From assembly GCA_903869185.1 (NCBI GenBank), contig CAIPYC010000128.1, forward strand, positions 1-32,669: 32,669 nucleotides of DNA, given 5' to 3'. A program made the translations under genes and the position numbers. The stretch is from an uncultured cyanobacterium (GTDB lineage Bacteria > Cyanobacteriota > Cyanobacteriia > Cyanobacteriales > Microcystaceae). A model generated the notes under the pieces. It worked only from the letters and a program-made list of their open reading frames with translations. It searched no databases and was not told where the DNA came from. Of this stretch, positions 23,939 to 32,481 are shown one piece after another. Numbering within the stretch: position 1 is the stretch's first letter; every line of letters begins with the position of its first letter.

Positions 23939-23944
23939 AGAGGA
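23939..23944 (+). promoter_or_regulatory. Ribosome-binding site supporting an ATC start of hflX
   Basis: AGAGGA (part of AAAGAGGAAG) lies 5 nt upstream of ATC 23950, an ideal Shine-Dalgarno spacing. It is 26 nt from the alternative TTG at 23971, which is too far for that start. Confidence 0.6.
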
Positions 23945-23949
23945 AGCCT

Positions 23950-25644
23950 ATCGAAACTCTCTACGGCAATTTGCAAGGACTCAAATCAAGCCAAATTAAG
24001 CAACTGCTGAAGATTTACCAGCAACGTCTTCCAATTGACTCACTCACAACATCTGAATTTGCCCAACGACTCGGTGCTATTAGTGCTGAAATTCAACAGT
24101 CCATATCAATCTACATTAATAGGCGCGGTCAAATTATCAGGGTAGGCGTGGGGGGACCGAAACAGACCCAAATCCCACTTGCCGAGCTTCCTCGCTATGG
24201 CGCCCAAAGGCTTTCCGGGATACGTTGTTTGACCACTAGCCTAGAAGATGATGCGCCAAAGGATTCTAGTTTGACCTTAATGGTGTTGCAGCGACTGGAT
24301 GCTTTGGTGACATTAAAACTGACTGATAAAGGATTTCAAAAAAGAGGCGGAGGAGGTACTGGTTATATAGAGCAGGCCCATCTTGCTCATCTGCTACCCA
24401 AGTCGCAATTCAATCCAGATCATCGCTATTATTGGACTGTTTCGCCTCCACTGAGCTTGGATACTCTTGCCGGGCAGGATTTTACCAGTCTTGTTGAGGG
24501 ATTAGAGGCAGAATTTAGTAGAGAATATATAGCCCAACAAGTTGAGAGTAAACTAGATCGGGCGATTTTAGTTGGAGTCATAACACAGCATACTCGAACT
24601 GAAGAGTTTACTGAAGTGATGCTTGAACTTGCTCGGTTGGTAGAAACAGCTGGTGGTGAAGTTCTAGAAACCCTAGAACAAAAAAGATCTTCACCCCATC
24701 CTCAAACTGTTGTTGGGGTTGGCAAGGTTGAAGAAATAGCCTTAAGGGTTCAGGCATTAGGCGCTAATTTGGTCGTATTTGATCGGGATCTTTCACCTAC
24801 CCAGATACGTAACTTGGAATTGCAGATAGGGGTCAGGGTAGTAGATCGTACGGAAGTCATTTTAGATATTTTTGCTCAAAGGGCTCAATCTCGCGCAGGA
24901 AAGCTACAAGTTGAGCTAGCACAGTTAGAATATCAATTGCCCCGGTTGGTTGGACGTGGTCAAGCGCTATCGCGTCTAGGTGCTGGAATCGGTACAAGAG
25001 GACCGGGTGAAACCAAGCTGGAAACCGAGCGTAGAGTCATTCAGCGCAAGATCTCCAGATTGCAGGAGGAAGTTAATCTACTGATGGAGCACCGTGCTCG
25101 CCTAAGGAAACAGAGAGAAAAACGGGAGATCTTCTCAGTAGCCATTGTTGGTTATACCAATGCCGGTAAATCAACTCTGCTTAATGCTCTGACTCAAGCT
25201 GATGTCTATGCGGCTGATCAGCTTTTTGCGACATTAGATCCTACTACCAGAAGGCTGCTTATCAGAGATGACGAAAATGCCGAACCCACAACTATTCTTT
25301 TGACAGATACTGTTGGTTTTATTCATGATCTGCCAGCTTCACTTTTGGATGCTTTTAGGGCAACTTTAGAAGAGGTGGTCGAGGCTGATGCTATTTTGCA
25401 TCTTGTCGATCTTTCTCATCCGGCCTGGGAGAATCAATTTAAATCTGTTCTTAGGATTTTAGAAGAAATGCCGTTAATTCCAGGGCCAATGTTGTGGGTA
25501 TTCAACAAAATAGATCAGGTTGAACCTGGTCTTGTGGAGTGGCTCAAGGGGCATTATCCTGATGCAATCCTAATCTCTTCTCTTACTCGCGTGGGATTGG
25601 ATGAATTGCGTCATCGTTTAGCCAGACTGGTCACTCTAGATTGA
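23950..25644 (+). CDS. hflX: Ribosome-associated GTPase HflX, apparent ATC start
   Basis: The HflX N-terminal domain is followed by a GTPase domain: G1 GYTNAGKST at about 401-409, DTVGF at about 453-457 and FNKID later. The family glycine-rich region is GIGTRGPGETKLE. The protein is about 564 aa if it begins at 23950. HflX rescues stalled ribosomes and splits 70S under stress. The start is unusual: in the cyanobacterial family the N-terminus reads M-E-T-x-Y-G-N-L-Q-G-L-K, and here the same residues are encoded with ATC at the Met position. No ATG or GTG occurs between the upstream in-frame stop (23911) and the conserved region. An AGAGGA ribosome-binding site sits 5 nt before the ATC. The first canonical start is TTG at 23971, seven codons in and within the conserved block. 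The 3' end overlaps the convergent gene by 14 nt. Confidence 0.9.
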   Translation: METLYGNLQGLKSSQIKQLLKIYQQRLPIDSLTTSEFAQRLGAISAEIQQSISIYINRRGQIIRVGVGGPKQTQIPLAELPRYGAQRLSGIRCLTTSLEDDAPKDSSLTLMVLQRLDALVTLKLTDKGFQKRGGGGTGYIEQAHLAHLLPKSQFNPDHRYYWTVSPPLSLDTLAGQDFTSLVEGLEAEFSREYIAQQVESKLDRAILVGVITQHTRTEEFTEVMLELARLVETAGGEVLETLEQKRSSPHPQTVVGVGKVEEIALRVQALGANLVVFDRDLSPTQIRNLELQIGVRVVDRTEVILDIFAQRAQSRAGKLQVELAQLEYQLPRLVGRGQALSRLGAGIGTRGPGETKLETERRVIQRKISRLQEEVNLLMEHRARLRKQREKREIFSVAIVGYTNAGKSTLLNALTQADVYAADQLFATLDPTTRRLLIRDDENAEPTTILLTDTVGFIHDLPASLLDAFRATLEEVVEADAILHLVDLSHPAWENQFKSVLRILEEMPLIPGPMLWVFNKIDQVEPGLVEWLKGHYPDAILISSLTRVGLDELRHRLARLVTLD

Positions 25645-29751: not shown

Positions 29752-31521
29752 TTAATCTCCAGCAAGTGCGCTCATATTTTCTTGTAGCCAATTTGCATCA
29801 GCTTGGCGATCTGTTCTTATTTCTAATATACGTATTGAATTTTGAGTTTGTCTGTTGATAATATCTGCCAATTGGAACCAATTTTCAATATAACAATATT
29901 CAATTCCATAGGACTCAGAGAGTTTCCTGAAATTGACATTCTGCCCAGTAGCAAAATATTTCTCAAATTCTTTTTCCTGCGCTATGGGTAAGGTATTAAA
30001 TATTCCACCACCTTGATTATTAATTAATATAATTGTTAGTTTACCATGAAAGAATTGATTAACCAAAAAGCCATTGATGTCATGAAGAAGAGCAAGATCT
30101 CCAGTGAGTAAAATTGTATCTTTTCCCTTATGAGCAATACCTAGAGAGGTGGATAGGGTTCCATCGATACCATTGGCACCACGATTACAGAAGATAATAT
30201 GGTTTTTATCATTCTTTCTCCAAAAAAATTCAGCGTATCTCACTGACATACTATTAGCAATGAATATTGATTTGTTCTCTGTTAGTATTTCTGGAAGAAT
30301 CCAGGCGATTTTCCCTTCTACTAAATCTTCAGTACTTTGCATTTTTTGGTTAATTCTCTCACTAAAGATCACCTCTTGTTTCAACCAAAGATTTAAATAA
30401 TTTAATCTTTGATAATCATTGGATTCAAGAGGATACAGATCCTGATTGTTCATACTTTTAGCTAATTGTTCAATCGAAAGTCTCAGATGGATTGTTTTAC
30501 CATGTAAAGGATCAAGGTTATCAGCACAAGGATCAATTACAAACCTTGGTAAGTCGTGGAGTTCAAGCCAAGAGCGCAATTGTTTACTGATTGGTAATTC
30601 GCCAATTTGTATTATCAGATCTGCTGTCATATCATTGGCTAATTTCCTATTGCGCAGAATCAAGTCATAAGTAGCAATAAGATTTGGATTCACTCCGGCA
30701 TGATGTCTCAAAGGAGATAGACAATCAGCCAGGATGGGATATTGTAGCAATTTAGATAAATAAGCAACTGATTGACAATAGTTGATAGATGATTTAGGAG
30801 AATGATTACCAACAATAATTAAGCCACTTCTAGCTGAGTAAATTCTCTCTAGAAAAAAGGTTTCAATATTATGAGAATTGAGGTGATAATCAGGAAAAAA
30901 ACCAGAAAGATGCGAAAAAAAAGCAGTAAAATCAGTTTCTTCTTGGATTTTTTTGATATTAGGATCTAATATCGGAGAGAGCGGTTCATCTAAGGGAATA
31001 TTGATGTGAACCACGCCCGGAACTGGAAGTAGGGTTCTCTCCCATGCCTGGATTACTATCTGACGCAAGTATTTCAGCATCTGCATACTATAGGAAGCCG
31101 GAGCCAGTTCTATATACCAATTAGGGTATTGTCCATACAGATTGGTTTGGATGATTGTCTGTCCTGCATGACAATCTCTCAGTTGGGATGGGCGGTCTGC
31201 TGTCAGAACCAGCAAGGGTGTTTTGCTCTGCTGAGCTTCGATAATGGCTGGAAGGTAGTTGGCCCCGGCGGTTCCCGAGGTACAAACTATAGCAACCGGG
31301 ATTTTGCTGCGTTTGGCCAGTCCTAGAGCAAAAAAGGCAGCTGAACGTTCATCTAATATGGGAATGGTTTCAATCTTGGGCGCTCTGGCAAAAGCTAGTG
31401 TTAACGGAGTAGAGCGTGAGCCCGGGGATATAACAGCTGATGCTAGTCCCAAGTGAGAAAGTGTCTCCACCAAGAGTGAAGCCCAAAGCGTATTGACATT
31501 GTGAAAATCTAAGTTAGTGAT
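29752..31521 (-). CDS. menD: SEPHCHC synthase MenD, apparent ATC start
   Basis: A thiamine-diphosphate enzyme joining isochorismate and 2-oxoglutarate to give the menaquinone or phylloquinone precursor; in cyanobacteria it supplies photosystem I. Motifs: ISPGSRSTPL and DERSAAFFALGLAKR (isochorismate site), CTSGTAGANYLPA, and the TPP pocket TGDLALLHD then INNQGGGIF. The frame extends upstream of the first TTG (31473) through DFHNVNTLWASLLVETL, which is conserved in the family, back to an in-frame TAG. It has no ATG, GTG or TTG in the right place. Its family-like first residues, T-N-L-D-F, follow ATC at 31519-31521, giving about 589 aa. So the gene uses AUC, or a truncated TTG start that loses the conserved NTLWAS. 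A clear ribosome-binding site is not visible before the ATC. Confidence 0.92.
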   Translation of the reverse strand: MTNLDFHNVNTLWASLLVETLSHLGLASAVISPGSRSTPLTLAFARAPKIETIPILDERSAAFFALGLAKRSKIPVAIVCTSGTAGANYLPAIIEAQQSKTPLLVLTADRPSQLRDCHAGQTIIQTNLYGQYPNWYIELAPASYSMQMLKYLRQIVIQAWERTLLPVPGVVHINIPLDEPLSPILDPNIKKIQEETDFTAFFSHLSGFFPDYHLNSHNIETFFLERIYSARSGLIIVGNHSPKSSINYCQSVAYLSKLLQYPILADCLSPLRHHAGVNPNLIATYDLILRNRKLANDMTADLIIQIGELPISKQLRSWLELHDLPRFVIDPCADNLDPLHGKTIHLRLSIEQLAKSMNNQDLYPLESNDYQRLNYLNLWLKQEVIFSERINQKMQSTEDLVEGKIAWILPEILTENKSIFIANSMSVRYAEFFWRKNDKNHIIFCNRGANGIDGTLSTSLGIAHKGKDTILLTGDLALLHDINGFLVNQFFHGKLTIILINNQGGGIFNTLPIAQEKEFEKYFATGQNVNFRKLSESYGIEYCYIENWFQLADIINRQTQNSIRILEIRTDRQADANWLQENMSALAGD

Positions 31522-31588
31522 ATTGCGCTATTTTGTTAGAGTTATCTCTATTAGTTTAGGGCTTTTGGAGGAGCTGTTCGTTCTGTAG

Positions 31589-31671: not shown

Positions 31672-32481
31672 ATGACTTCAATTGATTCATCAGAAAATCT
31701 TGGATATTACAGTATCTTTAAAAAAACCAAACTTCAACGAGTTAGCGATGGAGTAGAGGAATATATTTTTAGCGATTGTATAACAGAAAAACGTTTATTA
31801 GTAATTGTTTGGCCGCAATTAGGAGATTTTGATAGTCTAGAATATGCCTGGTGGTTACAAAAAGAATCTAAACTACTTACAGATAAAGGAATAAAAATAC
31901 GAGCAGTAGGTATTGGTAATCGTTCTTCAGGGGAGAAATTTTGCGATTATACTGGTTTTCCAGCAGTAGACTTGTTCGTTGACCCAGAAGCCAAATTGCA
32001 CTCTTCTTTAAATTTATATGGAGGTCTGTCCTTAAAAATACCAGGACTTTCACCAACTCAGAATGCTTGGGTTAATTTGATGCTAATGTGTGCAGGAATA
32101 GGAAGTCCCGGAACCTTAAATGAAGTATTAAGAGGTTACAAAGGAGATCGTCAGGCTCCCCAGCTAATCCAAGATGAAGAGATAATCCATGCCAAACCAC
32201 TTCCACCAATCAGAGGTTCATTTTTCGCTAAAGCAGGCGGAAAAGGTTTCCAAAGACCTTTAGAGTTAGCCACTCTGAGATTAAGAAATATGACTGAAGT
32301 TCTAAGTAATTGGAAAACTTATGTTCCAGATGCCTCTTATATGACTCAAAGAGGTGCTACCTTCTTATTCGATTCACAAGAAGAACTACTTTACAAATAC
32401 CAAGATAAAGGTATATTAGGGTTTGCTGCTAATATGAGTCATCCTTTATCATTTCTAGACACTATAGGGTTATTTGAATAA
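31672..32481 (+). CDS. Peroxiredoxin-like (AhpC/TSA fold) protein, no typical peroxidatic Cys motif
   Basis: 269 aa. A thioredoxin-like domain reads LLVIVWPQLGDFDSLEYAWWLQ, the point where AhpC/TSA members have the TxxC peroxidatic motif; here it is WPQLGDFD with no Cys. The remaining features (IRAVGIGNRSSGEKFCDYTGFP, LFVDPEAKLHSSLNLYGGL) match the PRX-like 2 subgroup. The one nearby Cys is in GEKFCDYTG, where the subgroup also has it. The C-terminal half (NAWVNLMLMCAGIGSPGTLNEVLRGYKGDR, ELATLRLRNM, TQRGATFLFD) is strongly conserved in cyanobacteria as I recall. Function unknown; a redox role via the later Cys is only a guess. It stands alone, divergent from menD. Confidence 0.82.
   Translation: MTSIDSSENLGYYSIFKKTKLQRVSDGVEEYIFSDCITEKRLLVIVWPQLGDFDSLEYAWWLQKESKLLTDKGIKIRAVGIGNRSSGEKFCDYTGFPAVDLFVDPEAKLHSSLNLYGGLSLKIPGLSPTQNAWVNLMLMCAGIGSPGTLNEVLRGYKGDRQAPQLIQDEEIIHAKPLPPIRGSFFAKAGGKGFQRPLELATLRLRNMTEVLSNWKTYVPDASYMTQRGATFLFDSQEELLYKYQDKGILGFAANMSHPLSFLDTIGLFE

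Follow-up and report, generated by a model that had tools for sequence, protein, structure and literature searches.

Does menD in this uncultured cyanobacterium start with a codon outside ATG, GTG and TTG? menD is a gene of the vitamin-K pathway, and in the window (the whole stretch of 32,669 nucleotides analysed here) its reading frame carries ATC at the position of the initial Met. A preliminary description of the window had claimed as much, and this was borne out by direct reading of the minus strand and by the same codon in a second genome. The frame runs from TAG (31530-31528) through CGC and AAT to ATC (31521-31519), continues with ACT AAC TTA GAT TTT CAC and AAT GTC AAT ACG CTT TGG GCT TCA CTC, and then reaches TTG (31473-31471). 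No in-frame ATG, GTG or TTG lies between TAG 31530-31528 and TTG 31473. A canonical start upstream in another frame was also ruled out, as a scan of all frames of the 57-base leader found no ATG, GTG or TTG in either species. We consider it likely that menD of this genus is translated from the AUC at 31521-31519, which would be a derived, genus-level start used with an ordinary initiator tRNA. The features discussed are listed in Table 1.

Table 1. Positions of the features discussed (window coordinates, except for infC, which is given within its own locus).
Feature	Position	Strand	Basis or remark
menD reading frame, ATC to stop, 589 codons plus stop	29752..31521	-	TIGR00173 455.7 bits; open frame
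menD proposed start codon ATC	31519..31521	-	direct read; same in G002; ATG/TTG in 28/28 other loci
menD codon 17 TTG, first canonical codon in frame, rival start (ATG in G002)	31471..31473	-	direct read, locus comparison
menD 16 codons from ATC to before TTG 31473, residue-level conservation	31474..31521	-	13/16 residues and 40/48 bases as in G002
In-frame stop TAG two codons before menD ATC, present in G002 too	31528..31530	-	direct read, locus comparison
menD leader, 57 bases before ATC, partly conserved with G002	31522..31578	-	no ATG/GTG/TTG in any frame; no GGAG/GAGG/AGGA by eye
hflX ATC at family start position, comparison case, class-wide	23950..23952	+	direct read, loci and pattern comparison
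GAGG six bases before hflX ATC, Shine-Dalgarno-like	23940..23943	+	direct read
hflX gene	23950-25644	+	window
infC of G000	L124 1507-2016	-	G002 = L125, G001 = L126

The menD search covered 39 genomes, namely the window genome (G000), two other members of its genus (G001 and G002) and outgroups, and 38 of them had a match at E <= 0.001. The match in G001 (90% complete) was weak, with 25% identity, and is not menD. G002 is a separate metagenome-assembled genome (Umea_bin-05048, CAISPN010000081.1); its menD is 71% identical to that of G000 and reads TAG CCC AGT ATC ACT AAC TTA GAT TTT. The 18 bases from the ATC onward are identical in the two genomes, the two preceding codons differ, and the ATC start is common to both genus members that have menD (2/2). 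Of the thirty menD loci read, the 28 from outside these two genomes carry ATG (25) or TTG (3) a short way ahead of the corresponding block. A degenerate pattern (start, any residue, hydrophobic, Asp, Phe), which detects exact spacing only and does not match G000 itself, was run on 291 genomes of the class and matched 61 of them, with ATG in 61/61 places. A canonical menD start would have been lost in the ancestor of G000 and G002 and AUC retained since. It counts against the AUC reading that only two genomes have the ATC and that menD was not matched in G001, their congener. As to the other genomes, G021 (2.8 Mb, single contig) had no menD match at E <= 0.001 and may have lost the pathway; in G023, G024 and G032 menD appears in two or more pieces, with an internal TAA in G032, which may reflect errors, splits or inserts.

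The preliminary description had also suggested early decay. A decaying menD, or an error of sequencing or assembly at its start codon, would fit a 205-contig assembly that at 2.76 Mb is small for its group, and the likewise small G021 lacks a menD match, but we consider this explanation highly improbable. The frame is open throughout its 589 codons, and at residue level it is 71% identical to G002, far above the identity at four-fold sites, which is 48.1% over the alignment and 47% when codons 1-16 are excluded; the suggestion of decay was thus not supported. An assembly error was ruled out by the same codon in the second metagenome-assembled genome. Because it is common to two separate species, the AUC seems to be inherited rather than a sequencing error or the mark of a dying gene.

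MenD might instead begin at codon 17 (TTG 31473; ATG in G002), 16 residues shorter, with the upstream stretch being a conserved leader or a remnant. A canonical codon stands at this place in both species, where the outgroups mostly have none, so a shorter MenD product is possible, and in local alignments two solved MenD chains (2x7j and 7tin) begin to align only at residue 16 and 21. Most solved chains, however, align from residue 8-10 of the AUC-started frame in these local alignments; a start at codon 17 would therefore probably remove part of the first helix of MenD. Such a start would also cut into TIGR00173, the NCBIfam menD model, which the protein matches across the whole model (positions 1-434 of 435) with 455.7 bits, above the curated cut-off of 244.2, and whose position 1 falls at 31488, upstream of TTG 31473. 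The residues before codon 17 match the outgroup block LDF-N-N-LW. Between G000 and G002, 13/16 of these residues and 40/48 bases are kept, against 48% identity at four-fold sites, and none of 20,000 neutral simulations under a simple model with one rate for all sites and the four-fold-site identity reached the observed residue or base conservation. Given this conservation of residues, codons 1-16 counted from the ATC are almost certainly translated, and the earlier claim that a start at TTG 31473 drops a conserved block held up. No Shine-Dalgarno-like motif was seen by eye before codon 17 in the window genome. A start at codon 17 is thus unlikely in our judgement. The AUC start of menD is most likely real, inherited and derived within one cyanobacterial genus, and initiation at the AUC itself is what we infer from these comparisons.

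The menD leader is partly conserved between G000 and G002 over about 50 bases and then diverges. Inspection by eye of the 57 bases ahead of the ATC showed no GGAG, GAGG or AGGA in either genome. Since a Shine-Dalgarno-like motif is not strictly required for a start, its absence weakens the AUC reading without excluding it. A promoter scan of the leader region gave one match, against a mean of 1.5 in shuffled sequences. The gene divergent to menD (31672-32481, plus strand) encodes an AhpC/TSA or peroxiredoxin-like protein according to the annotation in plasmid relatives. Set beside genes with IF3-discriminated starts, menD has no canonical codon in frame from the upstream stop to the conserved protein and an unusual codon conserved between species (G000 and G002), but no Shine-Dalgarno-like motif at the normal distance. 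In the mechanism that we propose, the ordinary initiator tRNA (anticodon CAU) would pair with A and U and tolerate C at the third position, and MenD would start fMet-Thr-Asn-Leu-Asp-Phe, with the first residue predicted. As AUC is among the start triplets discriminated by IF3, MenD output would probably be low and IF3-sensitive.

The initiator tRNA and IF3, which the preliminary description had proposed to inspect, gave different answers: the tRNA arm is ordinary, and the genus has a strikingly diverged IF3. The tRNA search covered genes resembling the arm pattern, and 33/39 genomes matched at up to 3 mismatches. Among such genes an altered initiator tRNA was rejected: G000, G001 and G002 each have a single exact match to the arm pattern, and ARAGORN read the anticodon as CAT in the loci submitted to it. 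The IF3 of the three genus members scored 198-201 bits, compared with 217-253 bits for the best copy in 34 other genomes. The best copy in G004 scored 188 bits, its ordinary copy being cut by a contig end, and the search found no match in G003. Mean identity to 30 outgroups was 58.5-60.7% for the genus, against 80.8% among the outgroups themselves and 70.5% for the lowest outgroup mean. At 15 of 76 outgroup-invariant positions all three genus members differ, the alignment shows an 11-column gap (about 10 residues) in the N-terminal tail, and the motif INERIRF of the relatives was not found in this tail. By comparison, the shortfall from the outgroup mean identity is only about 4-8 points for hflX and menD of the genus. 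Acquisition of this IF3 from another cyanobacterial group was rejected: 145/146 genomes of the phylum matched, the best matches (64-65% identity) came from ordinary relatives, and no donor was seen within the phylum. A second IF3-like gene, 33-35% identical to the IF3 of the genus, lies beside the ordinary infC in two other genomes (G009:C2:135564-136064 and G004:C13:571461-571961).

The infC gene of the genus itself has no canonical codon in frame before the conserved region, and ATA GCA is common to G000, G001 and G002. The sequence AAAGGAGAAAAAATCATAGCA suggests that infC starts with ATA in this genus. In most other relatives the frame reads NNG CCT GTG at this place, which fits a GTG start.

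The preliminary description had grouped menD with hflX as two core genes with the same change. It was right that ATC stands at the family start position of hflX (23950-23952, plus strand), whose product we take to be a ribosome-splitting GTPase, but the meaning differs. In the 30 hflX loci read, the start place is ATC in 27, ATA in 2 and ATT in 1. An in-frame canonical codon between the stop and the start place is absent in 20 of these loci and present in 10, in four of which (L099, L100, L101 and L121) it lies just two codons upstream; an upstream start is therefore possible in these. GAGG or AGGA occurs within 22 bases upstream of the start place in 24/30 loci. In 291 genomes of the class, a pattern for this region, uninformative for the 229 unmatched genomes (G000 included), found 63 places in 62 genomes, with ATC in 49, ATA in 13, ATG in 1 and ATT in 0. 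The Ile codon three places downstream in the same pieces is ATT in 35 and ATC in 28. The absence of ATT is thus confined to the start place, an argument for a special role of that position. With ATC or ATA at 62/63 places across the class, the hflX start place is, on these sequence patterns, an old class-wide cyanobacterial feature and not a change shared with menD. Because ATC/ATA is class-wide in hflX, only menD has changed in this lineage, and the grouping of the two genes as carrying the same change did not stand.

A start-codon survey, another check proposed at the outset, was carried out in part. It compared about 727 kb of sequence from G000 (26%) with 920 kb from G002, and yielded 304 reciprocal best pairs, 272 after filters and 159 non-overlapping genes. 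The rule flagged 38/159 genes, those in which 6 or more aligned residues precede the first canonical codon on the G000 side, and these were judged by eye; it misses any gene that by chance has a canonical codon upstream and any in which the next such codon follows after fewer than 6 residues. The convincing cases were hflX, infC and menD alone, each in a locus retrieved for a specific reason; contigs included without selection yielded none. A second rule gave no further convincing case among the five of its genes looked at. Among other genes, metK fits a TTG start and prs has a possible GTG start. One 471-residue open reading frame (L137 59-1471, plus strand; L170) has ATG in G002, but G000 lacks a canonical codon at the corresponding place.

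These results bear on whether a changed IF3 has relaxed start selection throughout the genus, with menD one among many such genes. The low identity of the genus IF3 to the outgroups, the much smaller shift of hflX and menD and the apparent ATA start of infC in all three genus members are consistent with this idea. In contrast, of the 159 orthologous genes in the survey, which took in about 26% of the genome, only those three were convincing, and the unselected contigs added none. A review (PMC4611024) moreover reports that the isolated C-terminal domain of IF3 already rejects non-canonical complexes, so a change in the N-terminal tail would not have to loosen selection. We therefore judge genus-wide relaxation improbable; this partial and conservative survey gave no hint of AUH starts in large numbers. 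The earlier suggestion of a lineage trait stands in that the menD ATC is inherited within the genus (2/2 genomes with menD), but for a general tolerance the partial survey yielded no further convincing case outside purposely retrieved loci. More speculatively, and with considerable doubt, cyanobacteria might keep a small IF3-sensitive set of AUH starts (hflX class-wide, infC with AUA here), which menD would have joined in a genus with a fast-evolved, shorter-tailed IF3, its output tracking IF3 and free ribosomes. If this were true, bacterial genera would differ in start-codon stringency as an evolving trait.

For annotation, a gene finder limited to ATG, GTG and TTG would call the start of menD 16 codons too late and assign wrong starts to hflX in many cyanobacteria. 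Comparing menD (ATG at 61/61 pattern places) with hflX (ATC/ATA at 62/63) offers a way to separate new from old unusual starts, and a derived AUC in a conserved metabolic gene, together with a sharply changed IF3, makes the evolution of start-selection stringency testable. Both the IF3 divergence of the genus and the class-wide AUC/AUA of hflX merit further study. A search of open-licence literature returned no title dealing with AUC as a start of menD or hflX in cyanobacteria.

AUU, AUC and AUA are recorded bacterial starts that are discriminated by IF3, according to PMC4611024. Two of the closest known cases are described in PMC5472188. There, sigR of Streptomyces starts with GTC under IF3, as proven by mutation and IF3 experiments; like menD, it is a gene other than infC with a start outside ATG, GTG and TTG that is conserved in one genus, whereas the menD ATC is known from comparison of sequences. 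The same source gives the infC start, under IF3, as ATT in E. coli and ATC in Streptomyces, AUH starts discriminated by IF3 as proposed for menD. Unlike menD, a metabolic gene with an AUC derived within one genus, infC autoregulates its own factor. Cyanobacterial hflX resembles menD in having AUC or AUA at the family start position, with no canonical codon in frame upstream in 20/30 loci. It differs in age and setting: the menD start is recent, limited to one genus and without a GAGG or AGGA motif, whereas that of hflX is old, class-wide and preceded by such a motif in 24/30 loci.
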